A stretch of DNA of 64,000 bases. Source: Actinomadura rupiterrae. Its GTDB lineage: Bacteria; Actinomycetota; Actinomycetes; Streptosporangiales; Streptosporangiaceae. Positions 40,597-60,420 of the stretch are shown one piece after another (the stretch's first letter is position 1; each line of letters opens with the position of its first letter). A program made the translations under genes and the position numbers. The stretch lies in assembly GCF_024172125.1 (NCBI RefSeq), contig NZ_JAMZEA010000003.1, positions 248,001 to 312,000 on the forward strand, written 5' to 3'. The notes beneath the pieces are model-generated. The model ran no database searches, was not told the DNA's origin, and saw nothing but the letters and a program-made list of their open reading frames with translations.

Positions 40597-40642
40597 GCGC
40601 GGCGAAGCCTGGCGGGCAGTGCCTGCGCCCGGACCACAGCGC

Positions 40643-41056: not shown

Positions 41057-41078
41057 CTTCGTCCTGTCCGTGCTTTTA

Positions 41079-41166: not shown

Positions 41167-41208
41167 GGCGCGGCGGAGGCTGGAGTCCCTTCGCCTGGAC
41201 CACAGCGC

Positions 41209-41499: not shown

Positions 41500-41580
41500 G
41501 GGCGTGTCCCCTTCGTCACTGGCTGTTGATGTGACGATCATCTGGGAACGCGGGCATTGATCACAAGCCGATGCCTGAGC

Positions 41581-41626: not shown

Positions 41627-44600
41627 TTAGGCGGGGGTCAGGTCTTTGGGGAGTAGGAGGGTGAGGTCGGTCAGGGAGGGGGCTGGGAGGAGGGCTATGC
41701 GGCCGGCCTGGCGGGTGATCATGCGGTCGAGGGTCTGGCGGGCGTAGCGGGCGTTGCCGAAGGTGCGGTCTCTCGGGACGGTGGCGAAGTGGGCGCGGAG
41801 GGCTTCGCGGGTTTCGGGGGAGAACTCGTAGCCGACGGTGGTGGCGGTGCGGGCGGCGATCTCGACCAGTTCGTCGTCGGCGTAGTCGGTGAAGGCGATG
41901 GTGTGGGCGAAGCGGGAGGCGAGGCCGGGGTTGGACGCGAGGAAGCCGGACATCTCGGTGGCGTAGCCGGCGGCGATGACGACGACTTCGTCGCGGTGGT
42001 CCTCCATGAGTTTGACCAGGGTGTCGACGGCCTCCTGGCCGAAGTCGCCGGTGCGGCCCTCGGGGGTGAGGGTGTAGGCCTCGTCGATGAACAGGACGCC
42101 GCCCCGGGCGCGGTCGAAGACCTCGCGGGTGAGCTGGGCGGTGTGGCCGATGTAGCGGCCGACCAGGTCGGCGCGGGCGACTTCGACGAGCTGGCCGCGG
42201 GGCAGGACGCCCAGGGCGCGCAGGAGTTCGCCGTAGAGGCGCGCGACCGTCGTCTTGCCGGTTCCCGGAGGGCCGGAGAAAACGAGGTGGTGGCCCACGG
42301 ACGGGACGGGGAGCCCGGCGGCGCGGCGGCGGGACGCGGTGGCGGCGAGGTTGACGATGTCGGTGACCTGGCTCTTCACGCCGTCCAGGCCGATCATGGC
42401 GCGGAGTTCGGTGAGGAGGCGCGTGGCCTCGTCGGCCTCGGGGGCGCCGGACGGTGCGGGGACGCCGAGGTCGGCCGGTTCTAGGCGGACGAGGTCGGCG
42501 GGCAGTGCGTCGGGGCGGGCGGCGAGGCGCTGGGCCTGGCGTTCGACCATCTCCTCGAAGACGCGGCGGGCGGCGCGGCCGTTGCCGAAGTCGTCGCCCT
42601 TGTGGAGGGCGGCGAAGTGCGCGAGGAGCGCGCCGCGGGTCTCGGCGGCGAGCTCGTAGCGGTGCTGGACGCAGAGTCGCTCGACGATCGCGACGAGCTC
42701 TTCGTCGGAGTAGTCCGGGAAGGTGATCGTCCGGGTGAAGCGGGAGGTCAGGCCCGGGTTGGACGCGAGGAAGCGTTCCATGTCGGCGGCATAGCCGACG
42801 GCGATGACCACCACGTCGTCGCGGTGGTCCTCCATGAGTTTGACCAGGGTGTCGACGGCCTCGCGGCCGAAGTCGTGGCCGCTGCCGGGCTTCTGCGCGG
42901 TGAGGGTGTACGCCTCGTCGATGAACAGGACGCCGCCGACGGCCTTCTGGAACGCCTCGGTGGTCTTGATGGCCGTCCCGCCGATGACCTGCGCGACCAG
43001 GTCGGCTCGGGACACCTCGACCAGGTGGCCGCTCTTGAGGACGCCGAGTTCGGCGAGGATGCCGCCGTAGAGGCGGGCGACAGTGGTCTTGCCGGTGCCG
43101 GGCGGGCCCGCGAAGATCAGGTGGCGGCTCATCGGCGGCGCGGGGAGGCCGACCTCCTCCCGGCGGCGGGCCAGCTCGATCAGGTTCACCAGGCCGGTGA
43201 CCTCGCGTTTCACCGCGTCCAGGCCGACCAGGGCGGCGAGTTGCTCGCGCAGCGCCAGCGGCTTGGCGGGCTCCTCGGCGGGCGCCGGGACGGCGGACGA
43301 GGCGGGCGTCTCGACCGTGTCCCCGTCGCCGTTGCCGAGGACGGTCAGGTTCTCGGCGCTCAGGTTCGCGCTCGGCTGCGTCTGCCGGAGCCCGGCGCCC
43401 GAATTGTCCCGGACGACCAGGTCCCGCAGCGCGACAGGTTCGGTGCTGTGGACGAGCAGCCCGTCGCCGCCGTTGCCGAACACCTCGGAGTCGCTCACCG
43501 CGGCGCGCGCGCCCGCGACGACCAGCACTCCGGCCAGGCGCGCGCCGTGGATCCGGGTGCGGGCGACGACCGCCTCGCCGCCCGCGCCGATGCGCAGGCC
43601 CTCGGCGCCGGCGGTGTCCAGGTCGCAGTCGCGGACGGTCGCGTGCGCGTCCTCGATCCGCAGGCCGGCGCCGCCCGCCTCCCGGACGGTCAGCCCGGCG
43701 AGGTGCGGCCGCGCTCCCCCGGCCGCGCGGACGCCGGGACCGCCGGTGCCGGTGATCTCGCCGTCCTCGACGCGGCCGTGCCCGCCGTCCAGGTCCAGGC
43801 CGGGACCGCCCGGCGCGGTGATCATCGGACGGCGCAGCAGCGGGTTCGCGCCGTCGGTCACGAGCACGCCGGTCCCGGCCGGGCCGGTGACGCGGAGCAG
43901 GTCGAACTCGGCGGCACTCTCCCCGGACAGCACGACCCCGTCGCCCGTCCCGCCGTCCACGGTCAGGTCGGAGAACACCGGCGAGGCGGCTTCAGTGACG
44001 ACCACACCGGCGCCGGCATCTGCAACCCGGCAGCGCTCGAAGCGGCCCCGGGAACGGGAGGTCACTTCGATACCGGTGTCCGAGGTTCCGGACACTTCGC
44101 AGTCCACGAGCAGCGGATCGGTACCGCCCGCTAGGCGAATGCCCGGGGCGGACGCGCCCGCTACACGGATCCCCTCCAGCCTCGCGCGCCCGCGCGTAGC
44201 GAGGTGGACACCGGCGTCCGCGCACTCGCGCACGATCGTCCGCCGGACGGTCGTGGACGAGTCCTCCTCCAGCGCGATCGCGGGCTTGGCCGTCCCGGTG
44301 ATCTCGCAGTCCTCGACGGTGCCGCGTCCGTGCCCGTTGGCGCACAGGCCGTTGCCGCGCGCGTCGCGCAGCACGCAGCGGCGGACGAGCGGGTCGCCGT
44401 GCCCGCCGATCACCACGGCGGACGTGCCGAGGCCCTCGACCACGCAGTCCTCAACGACGCTCTCCCCCGGCGCGGTCACCACGACGCCCGCGCCGGACGG
44501 GTTGGAGATGCGGCAGCCGCGCATCGCGAGGGTGCCCTCGTCGCGGCAGAGCACGGCCGTCCAGGACGCGCCGGTGATGCGGCAGTCGTCGATCGCGGCC

Positions 44601-44899
44601 TGGCCGACCGCCACGTCCACCGCGGGGGTGTCGGCGTCCTCGCCGGTGACGGTCAGCCCGGACAGCATCACGGCCTCGGCGGCGAGCAGGAACGCGCTGC
44701 CCTCGGCGGCGGCGATCTCGACCGTGCCGGGGCCGTCCGCCGCGAGGATCGTCACGACCCGCGTCACGACCAGGCTCTCCCGGTACCGTCCCGGCCCGAC
44801 CGCGATGACCGCGCCGGACGGCGCGGCGGCGAGGGCCGCTTCGAGGGTGGAGTGGTCGGCGTCCGGGCCGGTGCCGACCCGCAACCGCTGCCGTGTCAT
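41627..44899 (-). CDS. beta-helix protein fused to two CbbX/EccA-type AAA+ domains
   Basis: The 1090-residue protein has a right-handed parallel beta-helix (about 20-530) of short repeats such as [20 protein letters not shown]. Two AAA+ ATPase domains follow, with Walker [16 protein letters not shown] near 597 and 876, Walker [12 protein letters not shown] near 657 and 934, and arginine-finger regions SNPGLxSRF. The AAA+ pair resembles CbbX and the C-terminal domain of EccA, the cytosolic ATPase of type VII secretion. It lies 24 bp after the golvesin-like gene in the effector operon, which supports a role in substrate handling. The beta-helix is likely a binding platform. GGAG precedes the ATG. 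Confidence 0.88.
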
Positions 44900-44922: not shown

Positions 44923-46221
44923 TCAGGGCTTGCAGATGGCACGCATGGCGCCCGCGGCGAGGTGCGCGCCGCTCCGGCTGCCCCAGTCGATGCCGCGGTC
45001 GTGCAGTTTCACGGTCAGGGACCCGCCGCTCACCGGGTACGAGCCGACGTCGACCCAGCTGTCCTGGTTCGAGGTCTGGTCCACGGTGAAGGCGGACCCG
45101 CCGACCGTGTAGTACGCGGGCGCGCCGCCGACGTCCTTGATCCCGCCGGACGGGACGTACACCGACAACTGGCAGGTCCCGTTCTGGACCTGCCCGGTGT
45201 CGAACGTCCAGAGCACCGAGTTCTCGCCGTCCTTGTTAGAGGCGCCCGTCATCGGGACGGTCGAGAACCGGCCGCTACATCCATTGCCCGGGGAGCTGCC
45301 GATGCGCGTGTGCCAGTCCTCGTTGTGCCCGATCAGCCGGTAGCCGCCGCCGGTGGAACTCGGGCAGCCGGGGCCCGCGAGCGCCGTGACGGAGACCGAG
45401 TGCGCCTTGTCGCCCTTCGGCGCGCCCGCGTTCGGCGCGCCGCCGGGCTTCTCGGGCGTCCCGTCGCCCGCCTTCCCGCCCGCTCCGCCGGACGGGCTGG
45501 TGGACGGCGCGCCGCCGCCCCCTCCGCCGCCGTTCCCACCGTTCCCGCCTCCGCCGCCCGTGCCGTCCGTGGGGGCGGGGCCGAGCTTGGGGTCGGTCAC
45601 GCCCGGGACGTAGCCGGAATCGCCGGGCTTGTGCAGGCCGCCGAACGCGACCGGCTGCTCCTTCTTGCCCGAGTGGTCGCCGCCGCCCACGGTCGCCACG
45701 GCCAGCGGCACCGCGAGCAGGACGAGCCCGACGAGCACCGCCCCGGCCAGCGCGGGCTTGCTCGGCTTCCCGACGGCCTGCTCCTTCGGCTTCGCGGCGG
45801 CCGTCGTGGCGAGCGCGAACCCGCGTGCCTTCGCCTTGCCTTCGGCTTTCGCCTCGGCGTCGGCATCGGCTTCGACGTCCGCGACGGCCTCGGCTTTGGC
45901 GTCGGTTTTGACTGCGGCCTTGGCCTTCGCTTTCGCTTCTGCTTCGGCCTTCGCGGCCACCTTCGCCTCAGCGTCCGGCCCGAACCTGCGTCCGCCCTCA
46001 GCGCCCGTCCCTGCCGACGCGACCGGTCCGGCTTCCGCCTCGGTGCTCGTCCCGGCTTCCGCTTCGGCCTCGGTCTCGGGCTTCGCTTCGCCCTCCGCGC
46101 TCAGCGCGGCCGAGACCGCCTGGGCGTCGGCGGTCCCCGGCGAGGGCGCCGTCTCGTCCGGGACGGCCTGGTCACCCGCGTCCGTGGGACGCCGCGATCC
46201 GCGAGCGCCGTCGTTGTCCAT
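44923..46221 (-). CDS. membrane protein with golvesin-like C-terminal domain
   Basis: The 432-residue protein has a long Ala/Glu/Lys-rich cytoplasmic part (about 1-150), with repeats such as EAEAKAKAKAAVKTDAKAEA, and one membrane helix (about 158-180). A Gly-rich linker (about 215-265) leads to an exported domain (about 275-432) with four Cys and VLWTFDTGQVQNGTCQLSVY, YTVGGSAFTVDQ and VKLHDRG. The C-terminal pattern recalls golvesin C-terminal or carbohydrate-binding domains. GGGAGAGG precedes the ATG. It sits in the type VII effector operon between the giant protein and the AAA+ gene. A surface-binding role is inference. Confidence 0.7.
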   Translation of the reverse strand: MDNDGARGSRRPTDAGDQAVPDETAPSPGTADAQAVSAALSAEGEAKPETEAEAEAGTSTEAEAGPVASAGTGAEGGRRFGPDAEAKVAAKAEAEAKAKAKAAVKTDAKAEAVADVEADADAEAKAEGKAKARGFALATTAAAKPKEQAVGKPSKPALAGAVLVGLVLLAVPLAVATVGGGDHSGKKEQPVAFGGLHKPGDSGYVPGVTDPKLGPAPTDGTGGGGGNGGNGGGGGGGAPSTSPSGGAGGKAGDGTPEKPGGAPNAGAPKGDKAHSVSVTALAGPGCPSSTGGGYRLIGHNEDWHTRIGSSPGNGCSGRFSTVPMTGASNKDGENSVLWTFDTGQVQNGTCQLSVYVPSGGIKDVGGAPAYYTVGGSAFTVDQTSNQDSWVDVGSYPVSGGSLTVKLHDRGIDWGSRSGAHLAAGAMRAICKP

Positions 46222-46332: not shown

Positions 46333-46391
46333 CGGCTCACGTGCGGGCTCCGCTCCCGGCTCACGTGCAACCACCGCCCCCGGCTCACGGG
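46333..46391. repeat. 24-bp tandem repeat at the 3' end of the giant gene
   Basis: CGGCTCACGTGC occurs at 46333 and 46357, and CGGCTCACGGG at 46381; the period is exactly 24 bp. The last copy includes the stop codon of the giant gene. The first two contain CACGTG. Confidence 0.8.
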
Positions 46392-49300
46392 TGGCCTCCG
46401 GTGCCGCGGCCGGTCCGGGCCGGGGCGGGCTCGCCCGTGGCCGTGAGGATGAACTGGCCGTAGGAGTCCGCGTTCATGAGGCCGCGCAGCCCCATCGCGT
46501 ACCAGTTCGCCTGCTTCTTCTTGATGTCCGCCTCGCTGGACCCGGTGTACGACCCCGGGTCCCGGACGTTGCGGTCGTCGTTGGGGATGACCACGTCCTC
46601 GGGCATCCCGTCGTAGAGGACCTCGTCGTTGTACGAGGAGTACTGGTAGTCGAGCGTCCCGGCGAAGCGGTGCGTGGCCTCGTGGATGAGGAGCCAGGTC
46701 AGCTCCGTGTGCCCGCCGATCTGCGCGAGCCGGATCGAGCTGGTCCGCTCGAACATCGGCGCCAGCTCGTCGCGTTCCATCTGCTTCGGGTCGGTGAGCC
46801 GCTGCCCGATCTCCGTCCAGGTCGGCTTCACCCAGCCGAGGTGGGTCGGGTTGCCGCCGGGGACGATCTTGATGCTCGCCTGCGCGGAGTCCAGGCCGTC
46901 CCGGACGCGGGTCAGGACGTCCACGACCCGGTCGACGTAGGTGAGGATCTCGTGCTGCGGCTTGTCGCGCAGCACCGGGAAGCTCGAATCCAGGGCCTTG
47001 CGGACGGGGTGGTCCGGGTGCAGCGGATGGTCGGTGGAGCGCATCGTCTGCGGGGTCCGCAGCTTGGATCCGAGCAGGTCGACGACCTGGTCGATCCTGC
47101 GCTTGGCGTCGGCGACGGCGTTACGCGTCCGCTGCTCCTTGACAGCGTAGTTCTCGACCGTGCCTTCGGCTTTGATCGACACGTTGGCGCTGCTGTAGAG
47201 CTTGCCGGTGGCCTGGTCGAACTGGTCGCCGTGCAGCGGACGCGGCGGAACCCCTTCTGGCCCGCCGTCCGGGTGCGTCTGGTGGGGAGCGTTCACGTTC
47301 ACCCACTGGCCGGTACCGCCGTCGTAGCGCCAGACCGGCGACGGGACGAGCGGCGCTTGGTCGAGCGGCGGCGCGGACGGGGTGTCCGTCGTGTCGTCCG
47401 GGCGCGGAACGTCGTGGTGCGCCTGCTTCGCGATCTCCTCGATGCGCGTGAGGTCGTGCTCCGTCAGCACCTTGTCCTGCGTAGCCGCGACGGAGTGCAT
47501 GACCCCCTCAGACGAGACGGACGAGGACGAGTGCAGAACCGCGCCGCGCTCGTAGTCGTCCGGCAGCCCGAGGTAATGCAGGAGTTCGTGCGTGAGCTGC
47601 CGGTGGTCGTTCTCCACGAAGACGTGGTCCTGCTTCGGGGTGCCCGCGCCCGGCGACACCTTCATCCGGACGTGCGCCCGGTCGGGGTCGCCCACGCGCT
47701 CCACGCGGACGTGCAGCTGGTTGCCGCCAGTAGGCAGGTGGAATCGCTGGTTCACCAGCAGGTCCAAGCCGTCCTGCATCCGCTGGTGCAGGCCGTCAAG
47801 CTCGCCGCCCGAGACGCCCGAGACGCCCGAGTCGGACGAGTCGAAGTGCACGCGGAGCGTGAACTCGCTGACACTCTTCCCCTCGATCTTGTATTCGCGC
47901 AGGTCGTAGCGGATGCGCGTGGTCTCCTGGCGCAGCCCGCCGAGCGCGGAGACGATGTCGTCGTAGAGCCGGTCGCCGCCTTGCGGGTGCAGGAGTTCGG
48001 TCCGCTCGGTCCAGAGCGACTTCGGGGTGGTCTCGTCCCGAAGGTGATCCCAGGCGTCGGGGTGGAGGTTTTCCGACACGGCTTCCACGGTCGGGTGGGC
48101 CGCGTGGAACTTGCCGTCCTTCAGGACGACCGTGACGTCGCGTCCGCCGCCGGACTCGTTGAACGTCTGGAACGTGCCGTCCTCCGCGACGACCGTGAGC
48201 CGGACGCCGAACTCGCGCGCGGCGAGGTCGGGCAGAAGGTCGGCGGCAGAGTGATCCCAGCCGTCGCCGCCACGGGACAGCATCGTCCGCGCGAGGGCGT
48301 GGCGCTGTGCACCCGTGAGCGGCTGCGAATGCGGCATGACCTTCAGCGCGTCGAACTCGTTCTGCTGCGGCCCGCCCAACCGGATTCCGGCGGCCTCCAA
48401 CTCCTGCGGGGTGAAGGTGTCGGTGTCGTCCACAGCCAGAACGTCGGCGTAACGCCGCTGGTTGGCCGGACGATCGAACGCGCTGAGCAGCTTCGCATGG
48501 ACGTCCTCGGAACTCCCCACCGAGGGAAGCAGTTCGCTCAGCGCATGCTGGAGCGAACGCCCTTGAGGCGAAACCGAATCCGACAGTTTCAGCAGAGAAC
48601 CGGTAGGCGAGGTGACCTGGTCGTCCGCGATGGTGAAGCGTGGCGGCTGGTCGTCCTCGTCCTTGGAAACGGTAAGGACAGCAGGCTCGGCGGACGGATC
48701 AGCGGTGAGCCGGGCCGCGTTGGCCCGGGCGTCGCGCCAGCGCTTCTCGGCGTCCGCGACGGCCAGCCGGGACGCATCGGTGTCGATCCGGGCGAGGTTC
48801 TCGCGGGCGCGCGCGGCGGCTTGGAGCGCCTCCGCCTCGGCCTGCCGCGCTGCTGCCGCCTTACGCCGCGCCTCGCGAAGCTCCGACGCGGCCCGGTCAC
48901 GACGCCCGGCGGTCTCCGAAAGGGCATTCCGGTCGCGATCGAGCAGAGTTTCCGTCTCCCGCAAAGCCGCGGACGAACGGTCCGCCCGAACCTCCGTCTC
49001 GCGGATCTTCCGGTCGCCGTCCTCGACCGCGGTAAGCAGCCGCTCGTGCCGGGATTCGGCCTCGGCGACCCGTGCATCAGCGTCCCCAGCAGCCGAAGTC
49101 AGCTCCGAGACGCGTCGCGAGGCCGCCGAAAGGTCGCGTTCGGCGTGCTCGAACGCGGTGCGTGCGTTGTCGGTGCGGCGCTGCGCCTCGTCCCGGGCGG
49201 CCGGAGGCTTCGTCACGTCGTTGATGTGCGCGTCGCGTTCGGCGATCGTGTCGGCCCAGCGGCGGTAGCGGCGCGCGTACCGCTGCCGCGCCTGCTCCTC

Positions 49301-52300
49301 CTCGTCGCGGGCCCTGCCCAGGGAGTCGCGGGCCTGATCACGGATGGACCGCTGCTCGGTCAGGTCGCGAGTCGCGGTGTCAAGATCGTCCTGGTGCCGC
49401 GTCTGCTCGTCGCGCAGGCCGCGGAGTTCGGACTGCGCGCGGTGCAGGTCGGCACGGTGCAGGTCCCGCCGCCTCTCCAGCTGCCCGATCGAGTCCTGGA
49501 GCTTCGCCGCCTGGTCGTCGAGGTCGCGATGCCGCCGGTCGAGCCGGGAGGCGTCCGACTCCGCGGTGCGGCGTTCGTCGCGGCGGTTCTCGTGCGTCAG
49601 GTTCGCGCGGTCGCTCGCCGCCCGCGCCTCCTGGAGGACGGTCGCCGGGTCGCGGTCCCCGGCGTTCTCCTTGAGCCGGTGGACGGTGTCGTCGTGCTCG
49701 CGGCGCTTCTCGGTCCACGCGTCCTCGGCCTCGCCGTCCGCGTCCCACGCCTTCTTGACGGCGTCCGGGTAGCGCTCCTCGGTGAGCAGCCCGAACCGCT
49801 TCGCCTCGGACTCGCTGAGCCACAGCGTGACGTGCGTGTCCGCTTCCGTCTGCCGGGCACGCAGCGAACGCGGCGTATAGAACGGCGTGTGCTGCGCCAT
49901 CCAGGTAGCGGCGTCGGAGTCGCGGACGCGCCGGTGCGCCTGCGCAACGGTCGTCAGCCGAACCGGAACGCGGAACAGGAACGAGCGTTCGGCGGGCGGC
50001 TCGTTGGACGTCGCGGTCGTCGTGCCCGGTTTGCGATTCCCGGTGTCGCCGCTGCCCGAGCCGACGATCCCCGGGTTGGGCGCGCCGGTCGTCTGGAAGC
50101 CGTCGTGCGCATCGTCCCCGGTCAGGACGAGCGTGGGCGACGCGGTGCTGCTCGCCTCGGTGCCGAACTCGATGTCGGAGCCCGCCGCAGCCTTGGTCGT
50201 CCCGCCGAGGGTGACCTTGTCGGACGCCGTGAGCAGCTCGGCGCCGGACACGTCGATCTCCGGACGCAGCGAGACGGTCAGGTCCGTCCCGCCGATCAGC
50301 GCGCGGTCGGGTAGCCGGGGCAGGACGACCGGCTCGCCCGTGGACAGCGCCTTGTACAGCAGCGCCTTGAACCCGGTCGCGTTCAGCAGTCCGGACAGCG
50401 CCTCACCTGCGGCGCTTCCCGGACGCGTCAGGTTCGGCGACCCGACCGGCGGCGGGGTTCCGGACGGCCCGTCCCGGCGCGTGCTGGTCGCGGCCCGGAC
50501 GGCGGTGTGGACCGATTCGCGCAGGTCAGAGATGTGATCCAGGGCGTGGATCGCGAACTTGTCGGACGACAGCTTGTCCCACGTGCCGCCCTTGCCGTCC
50601 CGGACGAGCGGCCCGGGCGCGCCGGGTTCGGTCACCTTCGCAGCCGCGTGCTCCACCGGATTCGGCGCGTCGTGCCGTAGCGCGCCGCCGGGACGCAGCA
50701 GGCTCGTCGAGATGTACTCGCGGACGGTCCCAGCGGGGATCGTCCGCGGCAGCTCCTTGCCGTCCAGGGTGAAGGTGATCCGCAAGGAGACGTCGGTGTC
50801 GAAGCGTGCCTCCGAGCCCTTGTAAGTGATCGTGCTGGACGTCGTGTGCGTGCTCGACTCGGTCGTCCCGTCGGTCTGCTTGCGGCCGCCGTCCACAGTC
50901 ACGCTCGGGCCGGCGCCGACGAGCTTCGGGTCGGGGGTCTTGATCGCCTCACCGAGCGTCATGTTGGCGTTGAGGCCGCCGACGCTCTTCGACACGGCCT
51001 TGTCCTCGGCGGACGCCAGCTCGGACGCGACCTCCAGCTCGGTGTCGTGCCCGAGGCCGTGGAACTCCGGTTCGCCGTTCCGGACGAGTTCCAGCGTGAG
51101 GCGTCCGCTCGAACTGCTCAGCTTGAGGTCTTTCAGGTCCTGGATCGGGTCCCAGCCTCCGTCGGTTCCGGTCTTGCGGTCGCCCTCGAACTTCCACAGC
51201 AGGCGGTTCGCGGTGCGGAGCCGCGAGGTCAGGCCGCCGCCCTCCATCGCATCGGCGAGCGACGGCAGCGCGTGGTCGGAGATCAGCGCGCGCAGCCGGT
51301 CGCGGCTCGGCGCGTCCAGCTTCACGCCGGCGTCCGCGAGGAGCTTCTCGGCCTCCTGCACGACGGTGTGCGCGGACGGCGGGTGGGTCATGTACGCGGG
51401 CGAGCGCGTCCAGTCCTCCTGGTGCCACGGCTCGTCCTTCACCGGAGCGACGTCCGGCGCCCCGTCGAGCCACAGGTGCAGCTCGTTCTCGGGGACGTAG
51501 ATCAGCGCGCCCGCCTCGACGTTCACCTCGCGGCTCGCCGCCGGGCGCGGCGCGACCTCGGTGAACGCGAGCGGCCCGGTCTTGCCGACCTTCGCCGCGA
51601 GGGCGAACGACACGTCCGCGACGATCGGCACCATCCAGCCGGTGTACTTGCGGGACTGCTTGCCCGTCGCGGTGAGCGACAGTCCCTTGGACACGCTCTT
51701 CGCGACGTCGAGCAGGCTCGCGCCGGGCCCGTAGGACGCCAGGTCGTTGGGGCCGTGGTTGCCGCTGTAGCCGAGCGCGGCCGTGATCTTGTGGGTGAGG
51801 CCGGTGCCGGTCGTCCTGCCCGCCACCTGGTCCAGCCCGGCCGACAGCTTGGTGCTCATACGCACGGGCGGGCCCGCCAGGCGGTGGTTGGTGAGCGCCA
51901 TCCGCAGCCCGACGTCGGCGACCATGTCCCGGAACGGGCCCTCCGCGCGGACGCCCGGCACCTGGAGCCCCTCGGCGAACCGCTGCGGCGCGCTGCGGAC
52001 GACCGGCTGGCTCAGCAGCGCCTCCAGCAGGTCGTGCGGCCCGGAGCCGGGCTCGGTGTACTGCCACTGGTCGCCGGACGCCTCGCGCAGCACCTCGGTC
52101 AGCGCGTGGTTCAGGCCGTCGGTGACGATGTCCTCCAGCTTGTAGGACTCGCCGAGCAGCTCGTCCTTCGGGCCTTTGCCGAAGGTCCCTCCGGCGAGCT
52201 GGTCTGCGGTCTCGGTGAAGGTCCGCCGGTTATCGGTAGGACGCGGCGTGATGTCCTGGAACCGCGCCGGGTTGTGGTTGTGGGTGAGCCGGTCGGGGAC

Positions 52301-55300
52301 GAGCAGGACGATCTCGTCCTTGTGGGTCAGCGGCGCGTCGTCGCCGCCGGTCAGAGGCCGCGTCTCCGAGCGGTTCACGAACTGCTCCAGCGCGCCGACA
52401 CCGAGCACGCGCTTGAGCTTCCGGGGACGCGAATAGGTCGTGACGTCGGCGGTGAGGTTCGCGTTGTACTTCCAGCGGTTCGCCGGGCCGTCGAAGGACG
52501 ACTCCCCCGAGGACGAGTACGTCGTGCCGTAGGCGGTCTTCTCCGTCCGCTTGCCGCCGCCCTTGTAACCGGCGGCCGCCTGGACGCCCTGGCTGGTCTT
52601 GTCGCCCTGGTCGTGGGCGAGGCGGAGCGTGACGTCCAGGCCGGCCTCGAACCCCTGGGTGTCGGTCTGCGAACCGTCCGCGCGGCGGGTCGCGGCGGCC
52701 GTCCGGGAGAGCGACGCCACGTCCCGGGACGCGCCGTCGAAGGCCCGGTCGGTCAGCTCGGCGCGCAGCCTGACCACGACGGTGTGCATGCGCCCGTCGT
52801 GCATCTGCTTCAGCTTGACAGGGACGCCGTCGTTGACCAGCGAGCTCAACTGCCCCTGAAGCTGCGCCTGCCGCATCGCGGTCCGGAGCCGCTGGGTGTT
52901 CTCCTGCGCGCGCCGGTAGGACAGCTCGTTCGGGAAGTCGTCGCGGCGCTGACCTGGGCGGACGACCAGGTGCGGCGGCAGGTCGCTGCCCGGCCGGGAC
53001 AGCGCGTCCAGCAGCTCGTGGTGGAAGTCCTCGGCGTGGTCGAGGCCCTCGACGGCGTGCGGGCCGAGCAGGCGCGGCCGGTCCTTCGGCAGGTGGGACG
53101 GGGCGGGCGGCTCGGAGCGGTCGCGTCCGGCGTCCCATCCGGCGAACGCGCGCGCATCGGACGGGGTGAGCCGGTCGAGCGTGACCACCGGCCGGGTCTC
53201 GCTCGTGCCGTCCGGCAGGTGGACCGTGATGTCGCGCCGCACCCGGTAGAGCGGCAGCTCGGAGTACTTGACCTTGGACGTGTCCGCCGCCGACGCGCCG
53301 CCCGTGGACGCCTGCTCGGACGAGTTGGTCACCTTCACCGACGCCGCGGCGCGTCCGGAGAGCTGGAGCGCCCCGAAGGAGTGCGAGACGGACGGCCCGC
53401 CCGACACGTCCAGGCTGACCGAAAGGGTGTCCTTGGTTCCGGTCTCGGCCTTGACCTGCGACGCGACCGATGTACTGCCGGTCACCTTCGTCCCGGCGCC
53501 GACCAGTTCGATGCCCGTGACGCGCGACCGGACGCCGAAACGGCCGTCCAGGCCGGGCAGGTTCGCGGTGGTGAGCATCTCGTGCTGCGCCGCGTTCTGG
53601 TTCGCGAGCAGGTTGTCGGCGGACAGCAGGCGGTTGACCTCGCTCCGGTGAGCGCCCGGCCGCGCCAGCTCGGGATGGTTCCTCGCCAGCCAGTTCATGG
53701 CGGTTTCGCGGAGTTCGCGAACCGAGCTCATCCCTTCCGAGTGGACGACCGTCAGCGGACGGGACGTCGCGGGCTCGTAGGCGAGCGGGATGCGGCTCGG
53801 GCGCGCATCGACGTCCTTGGTGGAGGTCAGGTCGTCCGAGATGCGGGCCGTGATGCCGTGCCGCATCCCGAAGGACGCGGTGTGCGAGGCGCCCTTGGAC
53901 GGCGTGATCGTCAGCTCGAAGAACGCGTCGCCCCGGAACAGGTGCGACAGCCCCGCCGAGGTCTCGCCCTTCGCCTTGACCTGCGAGTTCAGGACGTGCG
54001 AGACGCCCTGCGCCTGCGAACCGGTGAGGCCGGCCGACACCATGCCCGCGACCTTGGTGTCCGCGACGGCCCCGGACGTCGGCAGGCCCGAGACCGTCAT
54101 GCCCGTTTCGGACGCCTTCACCGCGACCTGGAAACGCGTGCTCGCCTGCTTCGCCGTGCTCGCGATCGCGTCCGCGCCCTCGTGGGACGAGACGACCTTC
54201 GTCTTGTCGCCCTGCGGATCGGCCGCCGTCCAGTTGCCGCCCTTCAGCGTCAGGCGGACTTCGTGCGGACGCCCCTTCGCATCGGTGTAGGTGAATGCGC
54301 GCCCGTCACCGGCGAGCGTGCCGGGCGCGGCATGGACCGCGTGCCGCAGGTCGGCGGGGAGGCGGTCGACCGGCACGCCCGTCCGCTCGCTGATCGCGTT
54401 GAGCACCTGGGACGTGCCGAGCAGCTTGACCTCGGCGCCGCCGAACGTCTCGTCGAACAGGGCGGGCAGCTTGCGGTCGCCGTCCTCGAACGTCACGGTG
54501 CTTCCCGCGACGTTCTCCGGCTTCGGCATGGTCCGGACGAGCCTGGGCTGCTGCTGATCGGTGGGCAGCGGTTCGAGTCGGGTGCCTTCCTGCTCGTCCT
54601 CCGGCGCTTGGCGCGGATGCTGCGGGCTGGTCGGCGGGTGTTCGGGCGCTGCGTGCGTCGTCGTCGTGGCGCCGGGGCTGAGCCAGGCGTCGCTCTGGTT
54701 TTCGATCTTCTCCAGGTGGCCGGGGAGCAGGCCCGGCGCGTCCTCGTCGTGGAGGGCGCCGCTCATCAGCCCCTCCCCTTCGAGCGCCGCGCCGCCGCCG
54801 AGCAGGCGGTTCGGACGGGCGTAGCCGTCGCGCAGGCCGAACGAGTGCATCACCTCGTGCACCCACGCGCGCGGCGGAGCCCCTGCGAACCAGGTCGCCG
54901 TGTCGGACCGTCCGTTCCCGGGGACGACCTTGACCTGCGTGTGCGCGCCGGAGTCGACGAACTCGACCCGCACCCGGAACTCCTCGCGGCTGCGCGGTAG
55001 GGCGGACCCGACGTTGACGAGCCGGTCCAGCTCGTCCGCGAACGAGGTCTTGAGCGCTTCGAGCTGCTCGGGCGGGAGGCCGCCGCCGTCCAGCTGCACC
55101 CGGACGACGTGCTCGCGGACCATGCCCCCGCCGCCGAGCGGATCCGGGACGCGCCGGACGGCGTACCGCACCGGATCGGGCGAGCCGAGTTCCTTGACCG
55201 CCTCGGACAGGCCGCTCGCCCGGGAGTTCCGCGCCGAGGCGAGCGGATCGAAGTCGTCCGTGGCGATCTCGGTGTAGCGCGCCGGCGGCTCGTCCGACGT

Positions 55301-56905
55301 GGAGGTCGTGGACGTGGTCTTCGGGCGCACGTCGGGCTGGTTCGGCGTGCCGCCGACCGTCTTGGTCTCGTTGACCGGCGTCGGGACCGTCTTCGCCTCG
55401 GTGCTCGTCGGCGTCGAAACGGTCTTCGTTTCGTTGACCGGTGTCGAGACCGTCTTGGTTTCGGTGATCGGGGTGGAGACGGTCTTCGGCTCGTTCAGCG
55501 GGACGGGGTGGTCACCGGGCGGGAGCGAGGTCAGGTGGGACGTGTCGAAGGCGACCGCGAAGTGGCCGGACGAGCCGAGCGGGGTGACGCCGAGCGCCTT
55601 CAGGCCGGCGAGGCTGCCGTGGAGCATCACCTCGTGGACGCCGCCCATCGCGGCCCCGGCGACACCGCTCAGCCAGGACGTGTGGAACTCGTGGCTCGGG
55701 TCGAAGACGAGGTTGTACATGCCCTCGGTGAGCATCCCGGCCCCGGCGTTGCTGACCGCGCGCAGCCCGAAGCCGCCGATCTTCGGCAGCACGTCATTCG
55801 CGGCGCCCGCCAGCGCCTTGTTGATCGCGCCGGGCAGCTCGTGGGCGAACAGGTCGCGGGTCGGCGGGGTGAGCTTCCCGGCGCTGCCTCCGAGGTCCCG
55901 GCCGAGGTCCCGGCCGAGGTCGCGTTCGAGGAGGTTGCCGAGATCCTTCTTGCCCCAGTTCTCGGCCAGGTTGCGTCCGTAGCGGCTGCCGAGGTCGCGG
56001 GCTGCGTCGTTGCCGAGCGTCCCGCCGAGGTGCTGGGTGAACAGGTCGCCGAAGCCCCGGGACATGTTGTCGGCAGCGGACTTCGGCAGCGGCGTCCGCT
56101 CGGTGAGGTGCTTGAAGAAGTCGCTGCCGTGCGGCTTGAGGACGTTCCCGAGGTCGTGCTGAAGTTCGGGCCCGAGCCCTTTGAGTCCCTTGAGCTCCTT
56201 GTCGAGGTTCTTGCCGAACCGGCTCAGGAAATGGCTGAGGTACTGGGCGAGCCTGCCGAGCGGGCCGCCGACGAGCCCACCGAGCAGGCCCATCTCCGCG
56301 CTCTGGATGGTGAGCTGGGTGTCCCAGTCGGTGCGCGAGCCGTTCGCGATCTGGATGCGCTGGATGATGGCGTCCATCGCCAGCATCCCGGCCTCGCTGA
56401 TCACGACGTGCTTGATCATCCACTCCCAGAGGAACTGGAAGACCTTCTGGATCACCGTCCGGGAGACCTCCTCGGCCACCTCGGCCTCGGCCGCCGCGGC
56501 CGGGTTGAACCACCAGGTCGCCAGCGCCCACGCGATCTCCAGCGCGAGCTGGATCAGCTGCGCGATGATCATGTACTTGGCGTACTCGACGTTCGCCGCG
56601 GTGTCGCGGGCGAACTTCGCCAGCAGGTCGGACGCCTCGGCGGCGGCCGACAGGTAGCCGGGCCGGCCGTCCACGAACACCGACATCGAGTCGCGGAACT
56701 GGTCGGAGGTGTCGGCGTCGAACTCCGACTGCACCTCGTTGATCGCCTGGACGACCAGCCCCGGCAGGACGCCGCGCAGGTCGTGCGCGGTGTGCTGGTA
56801 GACCGCGGCGAGTTCCCGGAGGGCGTCCTCGTTCGCCTTCGGGAACTCCATCCCGGTCAGCCCCTTGAACAGGCCGATCAGGCCGTCCGGCAGCTCAAGC
56901 GCCAT
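46385..56905 (-). CDS. 3506-residue type VII-associated protein with three metalloprotease motifs
   Basis: The N-terminus (about 1-190) is helical and WXG100-like with hydrophobic stretches (MIIAQLIQLALEIAWALATW). At 683-693 lies HEVMHSFGLRD with a possible Met-turn EGLM (M714). At 3106-3116 lies HELLHYLGLPD with EGVM (M3136). Both match snapalysin-type metzincins (HExxHxxGxxD), and the sequences before them are related, so the domain is duplicated. At 3408-3419 lies HEATH then GTLD, with NADSY at 3478, as in M35 aspzincins. Residues about 2410-2735 form a long coiled-coil; 471-520 is a KTVSTP repeat. The middle third is beta-rich and unrecognised. It is probably a secreted effector, encoded 17 bp after a WXG100-like gene. 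Confidence 0.85.
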   Translation of the reverse strand: MALELPDGLIGLFKGLTGMEFPKANEDALRELAAVYQHTAHDLRGVLPGLVVQAINEVQSEFDADTSDQFRDSMSVFVDGRPGYLSAAAEASDLLAKFARDTAANVEYAKYMIIAQLIQLALEIAWALATWWFNPAAAAEAEVAEEVSRTVIQKVFQFLWEWMIKHVVISEAGMLAMDAIIQRIQIANGSRTDWDTQLTIQSAEMGLLGGLVGGPLGRLAQYLSHFLSRFGKNLDKELKGLKGLGPELQHDLGNVLKPHGSDFFKHLTERTPLPKSAADNMSRGFGDLFTQHLGGTLGNDAARDLGSRYGRNLAENWGKKDLGNLLERDLGRDLGRDLGGSAGKLTPPTRDLFAHELPGAINKALAGAANDVLPKIGGFGLRAVSNAGAGMLTEGMYNLVFDPSHEFHTSWLSGVAGAAMGGVHEVMLHGSLAGLKALGVTPLGSSGHFAVAFDTSHLTSLPPGDHPVPLNEPKTVSTPITETKTVSTPVNETKTVSTPTSTEAKTVPTPVNETKTVGGTPNQPDVRPKTTSTTSTSDEPPARYTEIATDDFDPLASARNSRASGLSEAVKELGSPDPVRYAVRRVPDPLGGGGMVREHVVRVQLDGGGLPPEQLEALKTSFADELDRLVNVGSALPRSREEFRVRVEFVDSGAHTQVKVVPGNGRSDTATWFAGAPPRAWVHEVMHSFGLRDGYARPNRLLGGGAALEGEGLMSGALHDEDAPGLLPGHLEKIENQSDAWLSPGATTTTHAAPEHPPTSPQHPRQAPEDEQEGTRLEPLPTDQQQPRLVRTMPKPENVAGSTVTFEDGDRKLPALFDETFGGAEVKLLGTSQVLNAISERTGVPVDRLPADLRHAVHAAPGTLAGDGRAFTYTDAKGRPHEVRLTLKGGNWTAADPQGDKTKVVSSHEGADAIASTAKQASTRFQVAVKASETGMTVSGLPTSGAVADTKVAGMVSAGLTGSQAQGVSHVLNSQVKAKGETSAGLSHLFRGDAFFELTITPSKGASHTASFGMRHGITARISDDLTSTKDVDARPSRIPLAYEPATSRPLTVVHSEGMSSVRELRETAMNWLARNHPELARPGAHRSEVNRLLSADNLLANQNAAQHEMLTTANLPGLDGRFGVRSRVTGIELVGAGTKVTGSTSVASQVKAETGTKDTLSVSLDVSGGPSVSHSFGALQLSGRAAASVKVTNSSEQASTGGASAADTSKVKYSELPLYRVRRDITVHLPDGTSETRPVVTLDRLTPSDARAFAGWDAGRDRSEPPAPSHLPKDRPRLLGPHAVEGLDHAEDFHHELLDALSRPGSDLPPHLVVRPGQRRDDFPNELSYRRAQENTQRLRTAMRQAQLQGQLSSLVNDGVPVKLKQMHDGRMHTVVVRLRAELTDRAFDGASRDVASLSRTAAATRRADGSQTDTQGFEAGLDVTLRLAHDQGDKTSQGVQAAAGYKGGGKRTEKTAYGTTYSSSGESSFDGPANRWKYNANLTADVTTYSRPRKLKRVLGVGALEQFVNRSETRPLTGGDDAPLTHKDEIVLLVPDRLTHNHNPARFQDITPRPTDNRRTFTETADQLAGGTFGKGPKDELLGESYKLEDIVTDGLNHALTEVLREASGDQWQYTEPGSGPHDLLEALLSQPVVRSAPQRFAEGLQVPGVRAEGPFRDMVADVGLRMALTNHRLAGPPVRMSTKLSAGLDQVAGRTTGTGLTHKITAALGYSGNHGPNDLASYGPGASLLDVAKSVSKGLSLTATGKQSRKYTGWMVPIVADVSFALAAKVGKTGPLAFTEVAPRPAASREVNVEAGALIYVPENELHLWLDGAPDVAPVKDEPWHQEDWTRSPAYMTHPPSAHTVVQEAEKLLADAGVKLDAPSRDRLRALISDHALPSLADAMEGGGLTSRLRTANRLLWKFEGDRKTGTDGGWDPIQDLKDLKLSSSSGRLTLELVRNGEPEFHGLGHDTELEVASELASAEDKAVSKSVGGLNANMTLGEAIKTPDPKLVGAGPSVTVDGGRKQTDGTTESSTHTTSSTITYKGSEARFDTDVSLRITFTLDGKELPRTIPAGTVREYISTSLLRPGGALRHDAPNPVEHAAAKVTEPGAPGPLVRDGKGGTWDKLSSDKFAIHALDHISDLRESVHTAVRAATSTRRDGPSGTPPPVGSPNLTRPGSAAGEALSGLLNATGFKALLYKALSTGEPVVLPRLPDRALIGGTDLTVSLRPEIDVSGAELLTASDKVTLGGTTKAAAGSDIEFGTEASSTASPTLVLTGDDAHDGFQTTGAPNPGIVGSGSGDTGNRKPGTTTATSNEPPAERSFLFRVPVRLTTVAQAHRRVRDSDAATWMAQHTPFYTPRSLRARQTEADTHVTLWLSESEAKRFGLLTEERYPDAVKKAWDADGEAEDAWTEKRREHDDTVHRLKENAGDRDPATVLQEARAASDRANLTHENRRDERRTAESDASRLDRRHRDLDDQAAKLQDSIGQLERRRDLHRADLHRAQSELRGLRDEQTRHQDDLDTATRDLTEQRSIRDQARDSLGRARDEEEQARQRYARRYRRWADTIAERDAHINDVTKPPAARDEAQRRTDNARTAFEHAERDLSAASRRVSELTSAAGDADARVAEAESRHERLLTAVEDGDRKIRETEVRADRSSAALRETETLLDRDRNALSETAGRRDRAASELREARRKAAAARQAEAEALQAAARARENLARIDTDASRLAVADAEKRWRDARANAARLTADPSAEPAVLTVSKDEDDQPPRFTIADDQVTSPTGSLLKLSDSVSPQGRSLQHALSELLPSVGSSEDVHAKLLSAFDRPANQRRYADVLAVDDTDTFTPQELEAAGIRLGGPQQNEFDALKVMPHSQPLTGAQRHALARTMLSRGGDGWDHSAADLLPDLAAREFGVRLTVVAEDGTFQTFNESGGGRDVTVVLKDGKFHAAHPTVEAVSENLHPDAWDHLRDETTPKSLWTERTELLHPQGGDRLYDDIVSALGGLRQETTRIRYDLREYKIEGKSVSEFTLRVHFDSSDSGVSGVSGGELDGLHQRMQDGLDLLVNQRFHLPTGGNQLHVRVERVGDPDRAHVRMKVSPGAGTPKQDHVFVENDHRQLTHELLHYLGLPDDYERGAVLHSSSSVSSEGVMHSVAATQDKVLTEHDLTRIEEIAKQAHHDVPRPDDTTDTPSAPPLDQAPLVPSPVWRYDGGTGQWVNVNAPHQTHPDGGPEGVPPRPLHGDQFDQATGKLYSSANVSIKAEGTVENYAVKEQRTRNAVADAKRRIDQVVDLLGSKLRTPQTMRSTDHPLHPDHPVRKALDSSFPVLRDKPQHEILTYVDRVVDVLTRVRDGLDSAQASIKIVPGGNPTHLGWVKPTWTEIGQRLTDPKQMERDELAPMFERTSSIRLAQIGGHTELTWLLIHEATHRFAGTLDYQYSSYNDEVLYDGMPEDVVIPNDDRNVRDPGSYTGSSEADIKKKQANWYAMGLRGLMNADSYGQFILTATGEPAPARTGRGTGGHP
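55345..55492 (-). repeat. KTVSTPxxET repeats in the giant protein
   Basis: Residues about 471-520 contain five copies of a 10-12-residue unit, ETKTVSTPVN and variants. It forms a Thr-rich linker between the helical N-terminus and the first metalloprotease domain. Confidence 0.85.
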
Positions 56906-56922: not shown

Positions 56923-57246
56923 TCAGCGGCGGGGGTGGAGGTCATGGCCCAGCTCGGTGTTCTCCATCTCGGTCTTGCCGAAGCGCTTGGCGGTGCCGAG
57001 CAGGACGTCCGCGCTGGACTCGAACCCGTGCGGGAGGCTCTGCATGAGCCTGCCCAGGTTCTCCCGCGCGGGCCCGTACACCTCGTGGAACTTGCCGCCG
57101 GTCTCGTCGTCGCCCCAGCACGCGCCGAGCAGCTCCAGGGACGTCGCGTGCCGGTCGGCGATCGCCCTGGCGACCCTGGCCAACTCGGCGACGGCGCTGC
57201 TGCGGTCGGCCAGGCCGTCCGGGTCGACGGACAGGAAGTCGGCCAT
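56923..57246 (-). CDS. WXG100-like protein
   Basis: The 107-residue protein has two helices around CWGDDETGGKFHEVY (W44-G45), a WxG-type turn seen in actinobacterial WXG100 proteins that precede large effectors. It begins MADFLSVDPDGLADRSSAVA. It probably dimerises and is exported with, or serves as a targeting partner for, the giant protein encoded 17 bp downstream. Its ATG overlaps the last base of the YbaB-like stop (TGATG). A YGPARE is present, but not the exact YxxxD/E spacing. Confidence 0.82.
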   Translation of the reverse strand: MADFLSVDPDGLADRSSAVAELARVARAIADRHATSLELLGACWGDDETGGKFHEVYGPARENLGRLMQSLPHGFESSADVLLGTAKRFGKTEMENTELGHDLHPRR

Positions 57247-57584
57247 CAGAACGCCCCCAGGAACGAGCGCAGGCGCTCCTTGTCCGCGCGCAGCGGCTCG
57301 AACGCCTCGCTGACCTGCTCGGCCATCGTCCGCTGCGCCTCGACGACGGTCTCGCTGACGGCCGCGGCGAGTTCCGCCGGGGCCATCGTGCGGTACCGGG
57401 TGGTGTTGAAGGTCAGGCCGACGAGCCCGCCGCGCGCGTCAACCGTCGCCGTGACCAGCCTGTTCGCGGACGTCGCCGACGCCGTCCGCTCCCGCAGTTC
57501 GGCTCCCGTGCTGCGCAGCCTCGCCGTCTGCTCCGCCAACTGTCCGAGCGCCTGCTGGAGCTGCTCCTGGAACGACGTACTCAT
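57246..57584 (-). CDS. YbaB/EbfC-like protein in the type VII locus
   Basis: The 112-residue product has the YbaB helix-sheet-helix plan: an N-terminal helix QEQLQQALGQLAEQTARLRS, a beta region TVDARGGLVGLTFNTTRY, and a C-terminal helix. Such proteins are frequent in actinobacterial ESX loci, where they are thought to act as adaptors for WXG proteins rather than as nucleoid proteins. The ATG at 57584 lies inside the end of the upstream 697-codon frame; the family needs this start. Its stop overlaps the next gene's ATG. Confidence 0.82.
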   Translation of the reverse strand: MSTSFQEQLQQALGQLAEQTARLRSTGAELRERTASATSANRLVTATVDARGGLVGLTFNTTRYRTMAPAELAAAVSETVVEAQRTMAEQVSEAFEPLRADKERLRSFLGAF

Positions 57585-59532
57585 ATTCGGCTTCCGTCCT
57601 GCTTCTGCGCTTGGCGCGGCGGCCGAGGACCCCGGCACTGCGCTTACCGTCCTGCCAGGTCCCCTCGTCCTCCGACACCCATGTCGTGCGTTCGCGTTCG
57701 GCGTTCTGCTGCCCGCCCGCGCCGCCGCCCTGCGCGCCGGCGGTCGGCGGGTAGAGCGGGACGCCGCCCTGGCCCTTGGCGGCCGAGCCGTCCGCCTGCG
57801 GGGACAGGCTCGGGTCGGCGACGGTCTTCGGGAGGCCGCCGGTTCCGTTCCCGGTGCCGAGTTCGCCGCTGCCGCCCGTCCCGCCGGGGATGCGGCCCCC
57901 GCCGCTGCTGGTCGGCACCTTGCCCATCTGGTTCTGGAGGCGGCGCAGTTCCTTTTCGGCCTGCTTCCGCGCGTCCTCCTGCGCCTTGGCGAGCGCGTCG
58001 GCCTGCTTGCGCGCCTCGTCGCGGAGCCGGGCCGCGTTCTCCTCGGCATTCTTGCGGGCCTGCTCCTCGGCCTTCTTCAGGTCGTCGAGGTACTTCTGCT
58101 GGGCCTTGCGGCGCTTCTCGTCCTCCTTGGCGGCGTTCTTGTTGCCGTTCGGGTTGTTCGTGCTCGGGACGAACCCGTGGCCGCCGCCTTTGGGGTTGTT
58201 CTTGCCCTGGCCGGGTCCGGTGCCCGGGCCGTTGCCCGGGCCGTTCTTGCCCGTGCCGTTCGTATTGTGCGAGCCGCCCGGCGTCAGGCTGCCGGAACCG
58301 CCGCCCTGCGGGCCCTTCGAGCCGTTCGGGCCCTGGCCGTTCCCGTTCCCGTTGCCCGTTCCGTTGCCGTTACCGTCGCCGGTGGTGCCACTGCCGGGGC
58401 CTTTGCCGTCGGGGCCCTTGTCACCTGATCCCGGGCCATTGCCATTGCCGGAGTTCTTCGGGTCGAACGGGTTGCCGGAGCCACCGCCGCCCGCCAGCGG
58501 CGAGGACGGCAGGTACCGCTGCATGTGGCCCTCGGCCGTCAGGTAGGCGTTGTTGAGCGTGGACATGGCGGAGGTGGCCGGGACGTCGAGCTTCTCGCCG
58601 ACCGACGTCAGCCACTTCAGCTTCGCCGCCGCGGACAGCGCCTCGTAGAAGGACGGGAGCGACGCGTCCATCCCGTTGCCGAAGCGGTACGGCGCGTTCG
58701 CGTTGGTCGGCGGGGACTGCATCCACTCGTCCACCACGGCGCTCAGCGCGCCCATCGGCATGGACAGCGGGTCCGCGCGCCAGGTCCAGTAGGCCGTCCG
58801 GAGCGAGTTGAGCGCGGTGACCAGGTTGTTCTTCGCGGTGAGCAGCGCGACGCCCATCGGCGGCTCGGCGCTCATGTGGTCGTGCAGGAGCGTGAAGCCG
58901 ACCGACAGCCTGTCGATCAGCTTCCAGATCTCGTCGGCGGCCTCGCCCTTGAGCGCGGCCTCGTCGCCGCCGAGCCCGCTCTGCCAGCCCTTCACCTTGG
59001 CCTGCGTGGTCTCCAGCCAGGAGATCACCTGGCCGAACTGGGTGGCCAGCTCGTCGAACGAGCCGAGCCGGACGGCCTTGGTGTCCTCGCCGCGCGCCGC
59101 CGAGTCGAGGATGTTGATCGCGTTGACCGAGTACTGCTCGATCGGGCTGTTCGCGCCGTTGCCCAGCTCGTGCTTGGGACCCTCGCCGCCCTTCGGCCCC
59201 CACGGGTAGTCGAAGGTGAAGAAGTAGGTGTAGCCGCCGACCGACCACGTCCTGACCATGTCGTGGCTGCCCGCCGACGAGGTGGACGAGCTTCCGTAGG
59301 AGTAGTAGCGGATCCACTGCACCGACGGGTCCGACACGGCCGACCGCGTGGGGACGGCCGGCAGCGTCTTGCCGTCGGTGAAGCTGTTGATCGCCAGCTC
59401 CCAGGTGCCCATCCCGCCGGTCGCGGGACCGTCGCCCTGGTTGTCGGTGAGCGGGTCGCCCGGCTTGATGCTCTTCGTGTTCGTCCCGTCGTCGCCGAAC
59501 GTGGGCTCGTGCGAGTCGATCGGCTTGGTCAT
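57439..59532 (-). CDS. WXG-type large substrate with Gly/Asn-rich linker
   Basis: The 697-codon frame encodes an N-terminal globular and helical part (about 1-350) with WQSGLGGDEAALKGEAADEI, a WXG-type helix turn. It continues with a Gly/Asn/Pro-rich linker (about 350-470), a charged helix (about 475-550, KEDEKRRKAQQKYLDDLKKA) and a short tail. It resembles PPE-like or WXG-fold substrates of actinobacterial type VII systems. The start overlaps the previous stop (TGATG). The last 48 codons overlap the YbaB-like gene in another frame and have poor codon bias, so the true end may lie near 57585 if a frameshift is present. Confidence 0.75.
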   Translation of the reverse strand: MTKPIDSHEPTFGDDGTNTKSIKPGDPLTDNQGDGPATGGMGTWELAINSFTDGKTLPAVPTRSAVSDPSVQWIRYYSYGSSSTSSAGSHDMVRTWSVGGYTYFFTFDYPWGPKGGEGPKHELGNGANSPIEQYSVNAINILDSAARGEDTKAVRLGSFDELATQFGQVISWLETTQAKVKGWQSGLGGDEAALKGEAADEIWKLIDRLSVGFTLLHDHMSAEPPMGVALLTAKNNLVTALNSLRTAYWTWRADPLSMPMGALSAVVDEWMQSPPTNANAPYRFGNGMDASLPSFYEALSAAAKLKWLTSVGEKLDVPATSAMSTLNNAYLTAEGHMQRYLPSSPLAGGGGSGNPFDPKNSGNGNGPGSGDKGPDGKGPGSGTTGDGNGNGTGNGNGNGQGPNGSKGPQGGGSGSLTPGGSHNTNGTGKNGPGNGPGTGPGQGKNNPKGGGHGFVPSTNNPNGNKNAAKEDEKRRKAQQKYLDDLKKAEEQARKNAEENAARLRDEARKQADALAKAQEDARKQAEKELRRLQNQMGKVPTSSGGGRIPGGTGGSGELGTGNGTGGLPKTVADPSLSPQADGSAAKGQGGVPLYPPTAGAQGGGAGGQQNAERERTTWVSEDEGTWQDGKRSAGVLGRRAKRRSRTEAEYEYVVPGAAPAGARTVGGADGEAAQHGSRTAGADGVGDVREQAGHGDG

Positions 59533-59990
59533 CAGGACTTCCCGGACGGATCTCCGGACGACCCGCCGGGCTGGTTCGAGCCCCCGCCCGGCTGGTTCGA
59601 GCCCCCGCCGGGCTGCGTCGAACCACCGCCGCCGGACGTCGGCGCGAGCGTGTTGAGGATCGCGTCGACCTCGGCGACCGTCAGGCCGTTCTCCAGCTCG
59701 GTCTTGTCGGCGGTGGCCAGCGTCAGCTCGATCGCGTCGACCATCTGGCCGAGCGTGCCCTTCAGCGCGTCCCGCCAGGTCACCACGCTCTTGGCGGCGG
59801 TCTGCACGGCGGTCGCGAGCCCGGCGCCGCCCGGCAGCAGCGTGCCCGCGCCCGGCTCCAGCGTCTTGTCGGTGACGTTGCCCATCGACACGAGGCCCGG
59901 GGCGGTGGTGACCTCGGTGGCGAGCGGCGTGACGTCCTTGCTCTCGAAGTCCCTCAGCCAGGCTTCGTCGATCTTGATGGTCTCCGCCAT
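59532..59990 (-). CDS. helical type VII-associated protein with repeat tail
   Basis: The 152-residue protein has a folded region (about 1-118) with MAETIKIDEAWLRDFESKDV and WRDALKGTLGQMVDAIELTL, followed by three STQPGGG/SNQPGGG repeats. It is helical and WXG-like in length without the turn. It lies 1 bp after a WXG100 gene and overlaps the next start, so it is a fixed member of the operon. It could be a chaperone or a substrate; no family is recognised with certainty. Confidence 0.7.
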   Translation of the reverse strand: MAETIKIDEAWLRDFESKDVTPLATEVTTAPGLVSMGNVTDKTLEPGAGTLLPGGAGLATAVQTAAKSVVTWRDALKGTLGQMVDAIELTLATADKTELENGLTVAEVDAILNTLAPTSGGGGSTQPGGGSNQPGGGSNQPGGSSGDPSGKS

Positions 59991-59991
59991 G

Positions 59992-60345: not shown

Positions 60346-60420
60346 CCGCGGCGCGCGGCCGGCGGCGGCGGGTAAGCCCGCGGCGCGCGGCCGGCGGGGG
60401 CGGGTCAGCCCGCGGCGCCG
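60346..60420. repeat. 32-bp tandem repeat at the end of a WXG100 gene
   Basis: CCGCGGCGCGCGGCCGGCGG and following bases repeat at 60346 and 60378, with a partial third from 60410. The stop codon of the 60405-60746 gene lies in the second copy; the first copy has TAA at the matching plus-strand place. Confidence 0.75.

Follow-up and report, generated by a model that had tools for sequence, protein, structure and literature searches.

Among toxins of ESX (type VII) secretion systems, CpnT carries a WXG100_2 head and a C-terminal toxin. Giant actinobacterial proteins in which multiple peptidase domains occur together with toxins such as ADP-ribosyltransferases (e.g., gi 345002682) have been known since 2012 (Zhang et al., PMC3482391); in the portions of that paper considered here, the giants' peptidases are anthrax-lethal-factor-like, caspase, OTU and MCF1-SHE domains, no metzincin is named, and an internal peptidase that stays constant amid differing tails is what separates processing peptidases from toxins. 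Here we describe a 64,000-nucleotide stretch of the Actinomadura rupiterrae genome (contig NZ_JAMZEA010000003.1, positions 248,001 to 312,000; the window) that encodes, within an ESX setting, a giant protein with two metzincin domains, A and B, and a zincin-like tail, domain C. We hypothesize that the giant is a polymorphic toxin exported by ESX, whose metzincins would cut the chain after export and free the tail effector, a reading to which we give a probability of roughly 45%.

Two metzincin domains and a zincin-like tail

An earlier note on this stretch had reported the 3506-residue frame and three zinc motifs while omitting the strand, which is minus. The observation as a whole was confirmed: HEVMH lies at residue 683 with EGLM at 711, HELLH at 3106 with EGVM at 3133, and HEATH at 3408 with NADSY at 3478, and Glu 684, 3107 and 3409 are as claimed. 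Third-position guanine-cytosine (GC) content of the frame is 0.93, similar to that of the neighbouring genes. Its parts are as follows (E, expectation value).

46385..56905, minus strand: giant ESX-linked protein, 3506 residues (P0001), no internal stop
56444..56884, minus strand: WXG100_2 domain (PF25547), export head, residues 8-154; E 1.1e-15, 58.3 bits, cut-off 27
55610..56905, minus strand: N-terminal head, residues 1-432, common to Nocardiopsis giants at 33-35% identity
54650..55279, minus strand: metzincin domain A, residues 543-752
54827..54859, minus strand: predicted metal site of A, HEVMHSFGLRD, residues 683-693
54764..54775, minus strand: presumed Met-turn of A, EGLM, residues 711-714
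48761..49588, minus strand: coiled coil, residues 2440-2715 (approximate); weak SMC match, E 3.9e-5, 21.6 bits, cut-off 567
47396..48082, minus strand: metzincin domain B, residues 2942-3170
47558..47590, minus strand: predicted metal site of B, HELLHYLGLPD, residues 3106-3116
47498..47509, minus strand: presumed Met-turn of B, EGVM, residues 3133-3136
46388..47158, minus strand: tail domain C, zincin-like, residues 3250-3506
46640..46684, minus strand: M35-like motif HEATHRFAGTLDYQY, residues 3408-3422
46460..46474, minus strand: M35-like distal motif NADSY, residues 3478-3482

Domains A and B are homologous and, by motif comparison, both carry the HExxHxxGxxH/D zinc site of metzincins with its ligands intact; EGLM and EGVM we take, by analogy with other metzincins, to be their Met-turns. 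BLAST of A against the remainder of the giant found B (32% identity over 148 residues, E 9e-10). A profile of 51 copies from other species, with the window sequence left out, scored 130.5 bits for A and 139.1 bits for B, as against 5.2 bits over the whole sequence for the best of 200 shuffles; no third copy was detected in the giant, where the three other profile envelopes score negative. The composite pattern HExxHxxGxxD...[GN]xM occurs twice in the giant and the M35-like composite HExxH...GTxDxxY...N[AST]DxY once, each with no occurrence in 20,000 residue shuffles, both patterns having been composed after the sequence had been inspected. The proposal that the domain was duplicated holds as far as common descent is concerned, but the best tree separates A from B (76/84 support); constrained as sisters they are 4.8 log units worse, which is not rejected (p 0.22, approximately unbiased test), and both sit on long branches.

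The structure model of B (248 residues) had a predicted local distance difference test score (pLDDT) of 82.7, and its Foldseek matches indicate a metzincin tertiary fold. EGVM corresponds to model residues 193-196 (block mean pLDDT 79), and the stretch preceding it averages 52. The metzincin zinc motif and this predicted fold bear out part of the earlier assignment to snapalysin-type metzincins (M7), but the M7 profile itself did not match: Pfam scans of the window protein (E up to 10) and of domain A (E up to 1) gave no M7 match, and one relative reached 17 bits against a cut-off of 25. In the fold matches of B, ADAMTS-type chains rank first, and the snapalysin chain has 134 residues compared with 248 in the model. 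Domain A has a weak match to NCBIfam M6 at residues 682-753 (E 0.0015, 18.5 bits, cut-off 110.8). Pfam includes such Tox-MPTase families, and no Tox-MPTase match appeared in Pfam scans of the window protein, its domains and its relatives. The consulted parts of the 2012 paper (PMC3482391) describe Tox-MPTase1-5 as Wss1-like, HExxH-bearing and usually preceded by RHS repeats at the N-terminus, and by this text description, on which the comparison is based, the metzincin domain may equal one of them. Judged from its sequence, the domain is a putative protease family that is uncatalogued and has no Pfam match.

Domain C has the HExxH, GTxDxxY and distal NxDxY of the M35 aspzincins (PF14521). In a genuine bacterial M35 protein (locus L089) these read HExxH-x5-GTYDHVYG and later NSDNYEYF, and in domain C HExxH-x3-GTLDYQY and later NADSYGQF, the spacing from HExxH to GTxD being three residues in C versus five in the M35 member. 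The motifs of the proposed aspzincin domain are therefore present, but PF14521 scored 13.1 bits (E 0.13) versus a cut-off of 30, and BLAST was not significant. The PF14521 search for M35 found none in 59 genomes, where the controls were silent, and one in 346, in a genome other than that of the window. Searches with domain C returned its own copy and one weak match lying away from HExxH in 298 genomes of the family, its own copy and one weak match (E 0.008) with two stops in 396 genomes of the phylum, none in viral contigs or phages, antibody chains only (E about 1) in the PDB, and nothing below E 0.064 in the relatives' loci. A single-sequence structure model gave a pLDDT of 41.1 and no confident fold. 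Domain C appears to be a zincin-like tail of uncertain family with no convincing relative in the genomes sampled.

The protease sites had been placed at both ends of a coiled-coil core. They do flank the core, but A is not at the extreme N-terminus because residues 1-432 form the ESX head, and the coiled coil makes up a small share of the core. Ahead of B, residues 2700-2945 (48071-48808) have 38-40% identity with two Streptomyces-like giants (G377, G596) and no Pfam match. An OTU-like reading of residues 2821-2938, common to these two giants, was dropped because it had no Pfam support and no cysteine in the aligned part.

Related giants and their tails

Relatives of the metzincin domain occur in Nocardiopsidaceae, Pseudonocardiaceae, Micromonosporaceae and Streptomycetaceae. 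With a six-copy alignment as query, species genomes yielded 39 loci, in Nocardiopsis, Marinitenerispora, Marinactinospora, Actinorugispora, Streptomonospora, Saccharothrix, Lentzea, Amycolatopsis, Saccharopolyspora, Umezawaea, Crossiella, Pseudonocardia, Dactylosporangium, Actinoplanes and Streptomyces. Domain A is uncommon in the genus, being found in 2 of 65 genomes (its own and a weak match spanning query residues 4-81 only), and domain B was found in 11 of 394 genomes of the class, its own included. Among plasmids, the first 1075 residues of the giant match 11 Streptomyces records, and the stretch of B and C matches five, only in the part up to B. A scan of genome contigs with the whole protein gave 11 pattern matches and no relatives.

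Most of the relatives' copies lie in very long frames (e.g., 3539, 3543, 5506, 8442, 6338 and 4638 residues). The longest case noted, in Actinorugispora endophytica (NZ_SNYN01000014.1; G105:C14:52893-103550; loci L057 and L058), is an open frame of 16,885 residues that reaches past the end of the contig; five of its metzincin copies are full, and further, weaker ones are partial. Across loci L047-L085, 82 envelopes were found at E 1e-5, of which 67 span the active site; HExxH is kept in 61 of these and HExxHxxGxxD in 58. Of the frames that have HExxH in one copy or more (n = 41, with the overlapping pairs L057/L058 and L074/L079 each counted twice), 25 had one such copy, 14 two and 2 four. Rows removed before counting were L005 (no HExxH), L017 (truncated) and L025 from set A1; from set A4, copies that lack HExxH or exceed 90% identity were removed, as were five rows belonging to L081, L082 and L084. 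The domain also occurs in shorter frames (e.g., L038, 640 residues; L052, 492; L069, 1809), some of which may be broken genes. In one genome (G377; L013, L020, L024), tandem units of about 530 residues have one metzincin copy apiece, and, at least in L024, a second motif, MLAHEIGLHP, lies farther on.

In these relatives the metzincin domain is internal and the tails vary. It was terminal in none of 29 closed frames (certain genomes contributing more than one), and its last copy lay 209 to 3965 residues from the end. The last 450 residues of the same frames matched ADP-ribosyltransferase in four, Gln_amidase in two and Gln_deamidase_2 in one. Four long frames were scanned whole, and of these L050, L062 and L064 have a WXG100_2 head, and L059 and L064 a C-terminal Gln_amidase; L059 has a glycosyltransferase domain as well. 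The combination characteristic of polymorphic toxins, a common head or core with an exchanged C-terminal toxin, is found among the giants. Nine of the 29 frames (L029, L030, L045, L049, L050, L051, L053, L056 and L060), all from Nocardiopsidaceae, have a similar short C-terminus, roughly ..F.QALN.., perhaps a C-terminal signal; the window giant has no such C-terminus.

The ESX setting

As is characteristic of ESX substrates, the giant has a WXG100-type head and an adjoining WXG100 partner, and EccB, EccD and an EccA-like protein are encoded in the window. The neighbours are as follows.

41627..44899, minus strand: right-handed beta-helix fused to two EccA-type AAA domains, downstream of the giant
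44923..46221, minus strand: 432-residue protein with a low-complexity N-terminal part and a likely membrane helix (by eye); Golvesin_C-like end, 22.1 bits, cut-off 31.6
56923..57246, minus strand: WXG100-like protein, 107 residues (CWGDDETG), 17 bases upstream of the giant; no NCBIfam match; the likely export partner
57439..59532, minus strand: AAWKG-family-like protein, 697 residues; NF038047, 69.2 bits, just below the cut-off of 70
59532..59993, minus strand: small cluster gene (start set at an internal ATG); weak NF033533, E 0.027, no match in a second scan
60405..60746, minus strand: WXG100 protein, 113 residues; PF06013, 32 bits (cut-off 27.3); TIGR03930, 35.5 (below 44.85)
60927..62297, minus strand: EccB
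62308..63696, minus strand: EccD

Beyond the window, on the upstream side (L088), lie EccC and a gene resembling mycosin (159 bits against a cut-off of 279); EccE was absent from the genes scanned. Relatives of the Golvesin_C-like protein were found in 9, and of the beta-helix/EccA fusion in 14, of 59 loci, beside other giants; these are mostly loci of giants, many end before the neighbours, and loci of one genome were not merged. A GC dip directly behind the ESX cluster contains three small tandem paralogous genes (40017-41541, minus strand; 125, 107 and 110 residues, identity 66-83%), a possible immunity array; by eye, all three products have a likely membrane helix at the N-terminus. Elsewhere in the genome (G000:C20:22359-29222; L027) a 2287-residue frame bears a second WXG100_2-like head and is directly preceded by a WXG100-like gene. 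In relatives' loci, small genes that we take to resemble the YbaB/EbfC nucleoid-protein type (L047, 6533-6931; L064, 35-430; L076, 3312-3809; L069, 1030-1485) lie near the WXG100-like partner or the giant itself; no such gene was noticed in the window.

Readings of the giant and known systems

We infer export, catalysis, self-cleavage and a toxic tail. From what is known of these families, the WXG100_2 head would pair with the 107-residue WXG100-like protein of the preceding gene and would bring the chain to the EccB/C/D machine, assisted by the neighbouring beta-helix/EccA ATPase. The core would serve as a long carrier. Because domain C sits where some relatives have ADP-ribosyltransferase or glutamine-amidase toxins, we read it as the effector and consider a zinc protease probable. 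With A behind the head and B ahead of the tail, the two are arranged as if to cut both off; these predicted zinc proteases would most likely cleave the giant after export and release the effector from head and carrier.

Several points weigh against this reading. Cleavage by A and B and their activity are predictions, and Foldseek support for B is modest: one match has E of 0.001 or below, query TM-scores (template modelling) with metzincins are about 0.27-0.37, and unrelated proteins appear from rank 9 onward. Domain C has no convincing relatives or confident fold, its toxin role being read from its position, and most of the 29 tails have no recognised toxin family. The distance from metzincin to tail varies among relatives (about 2550 residues in L059), which weakens a simple cut-before-toxin model, and in one of the four whole-frame scans, that of L059, no WXG100_2 head was recognised. 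Several copies per chain (two or four in 16 of 41 frames) and copies without HExxH fit pure processing less simply. Nor does an internal position exclude a toxin, because giants described in the consulted parts of the 2012 paper have several toxin domains in a row. No clear immunity gene, and no recognised immunity family, was found among the neighbours scanned, a set from which the three paralogues are absent.

The strongest competitor, a real possibility that we nevertheless favour less, is that all three domains, A, B and C, act as toxic proteases and are delivered jointly. The earlier note had suggested a multi-headed secreted protease or toxin, an interpretation that is supported in part. 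Metzincins are common among secreted proteases, and up to four HExxH copies occur per frame in L047-L085, with five in the 16,885-residue frame. Multi-toxin giants are described by Zhang et al. (2012), as far as the consulted text goes; however, the metzincin is never the last domain in the 29 closed frames and stays constant while tails differ. A more far-reaching version of self-processing, which we consider rather doubtful, is that the metzincin domain defines an uncatalogued family of self-processing proteases. In this version giant ESX cargoes, reaching 16,885 residues or more, would be exported as polyproteins that their repeated metzincins then divide into several separate effectors, and the inactive copies would mark or bind the cut sites. 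It is improbable that the fold's main role in the carrier is structural or in peptide binding, some copies having lost the site: HExxH-less copies do occur in several chains (e.g., L082, L081 and L083), and inactive peptidase domains are mentioned as binding modules in the 2012 text, but HExxHxxGxxD is kept in most active-site-covering envelopes and both window copies are intact. That the giant is a surface or developmental protein whose proteases remodel the producer's own surface, as the adjoining Golvesin_C-like membrane protein and the lack of a recognised immunity gene might suggest, is very improbable given that some relatives with the same head bear known toxin domains at the tail (e.g., L064).

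If the polymorphic-toxin reading is true, ESX would have a way to secrete and process cargo much larger than the substrates on which most study has centred, and one gene and one export event would yield several effectors freed by built-in proteases. Our data also add a recurrent predicted protease family without a Pfam match across four actinobacterial families. Among the titles and abstract openings listed in literature searches, none described the metzincin module or its repetition in giant ESX cargoes. With CpnT-type toxins the window giant shares the WXG100_2 head and the C-terminal toxin position, but it is about four times longer and has internal protease domains in addition. Like the giants in the consulted parts of Zhang et al. 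(2012), it is very large and has several predicted peptidase domains; it differs in its metzincins, a kind not named for the giants in those parts.

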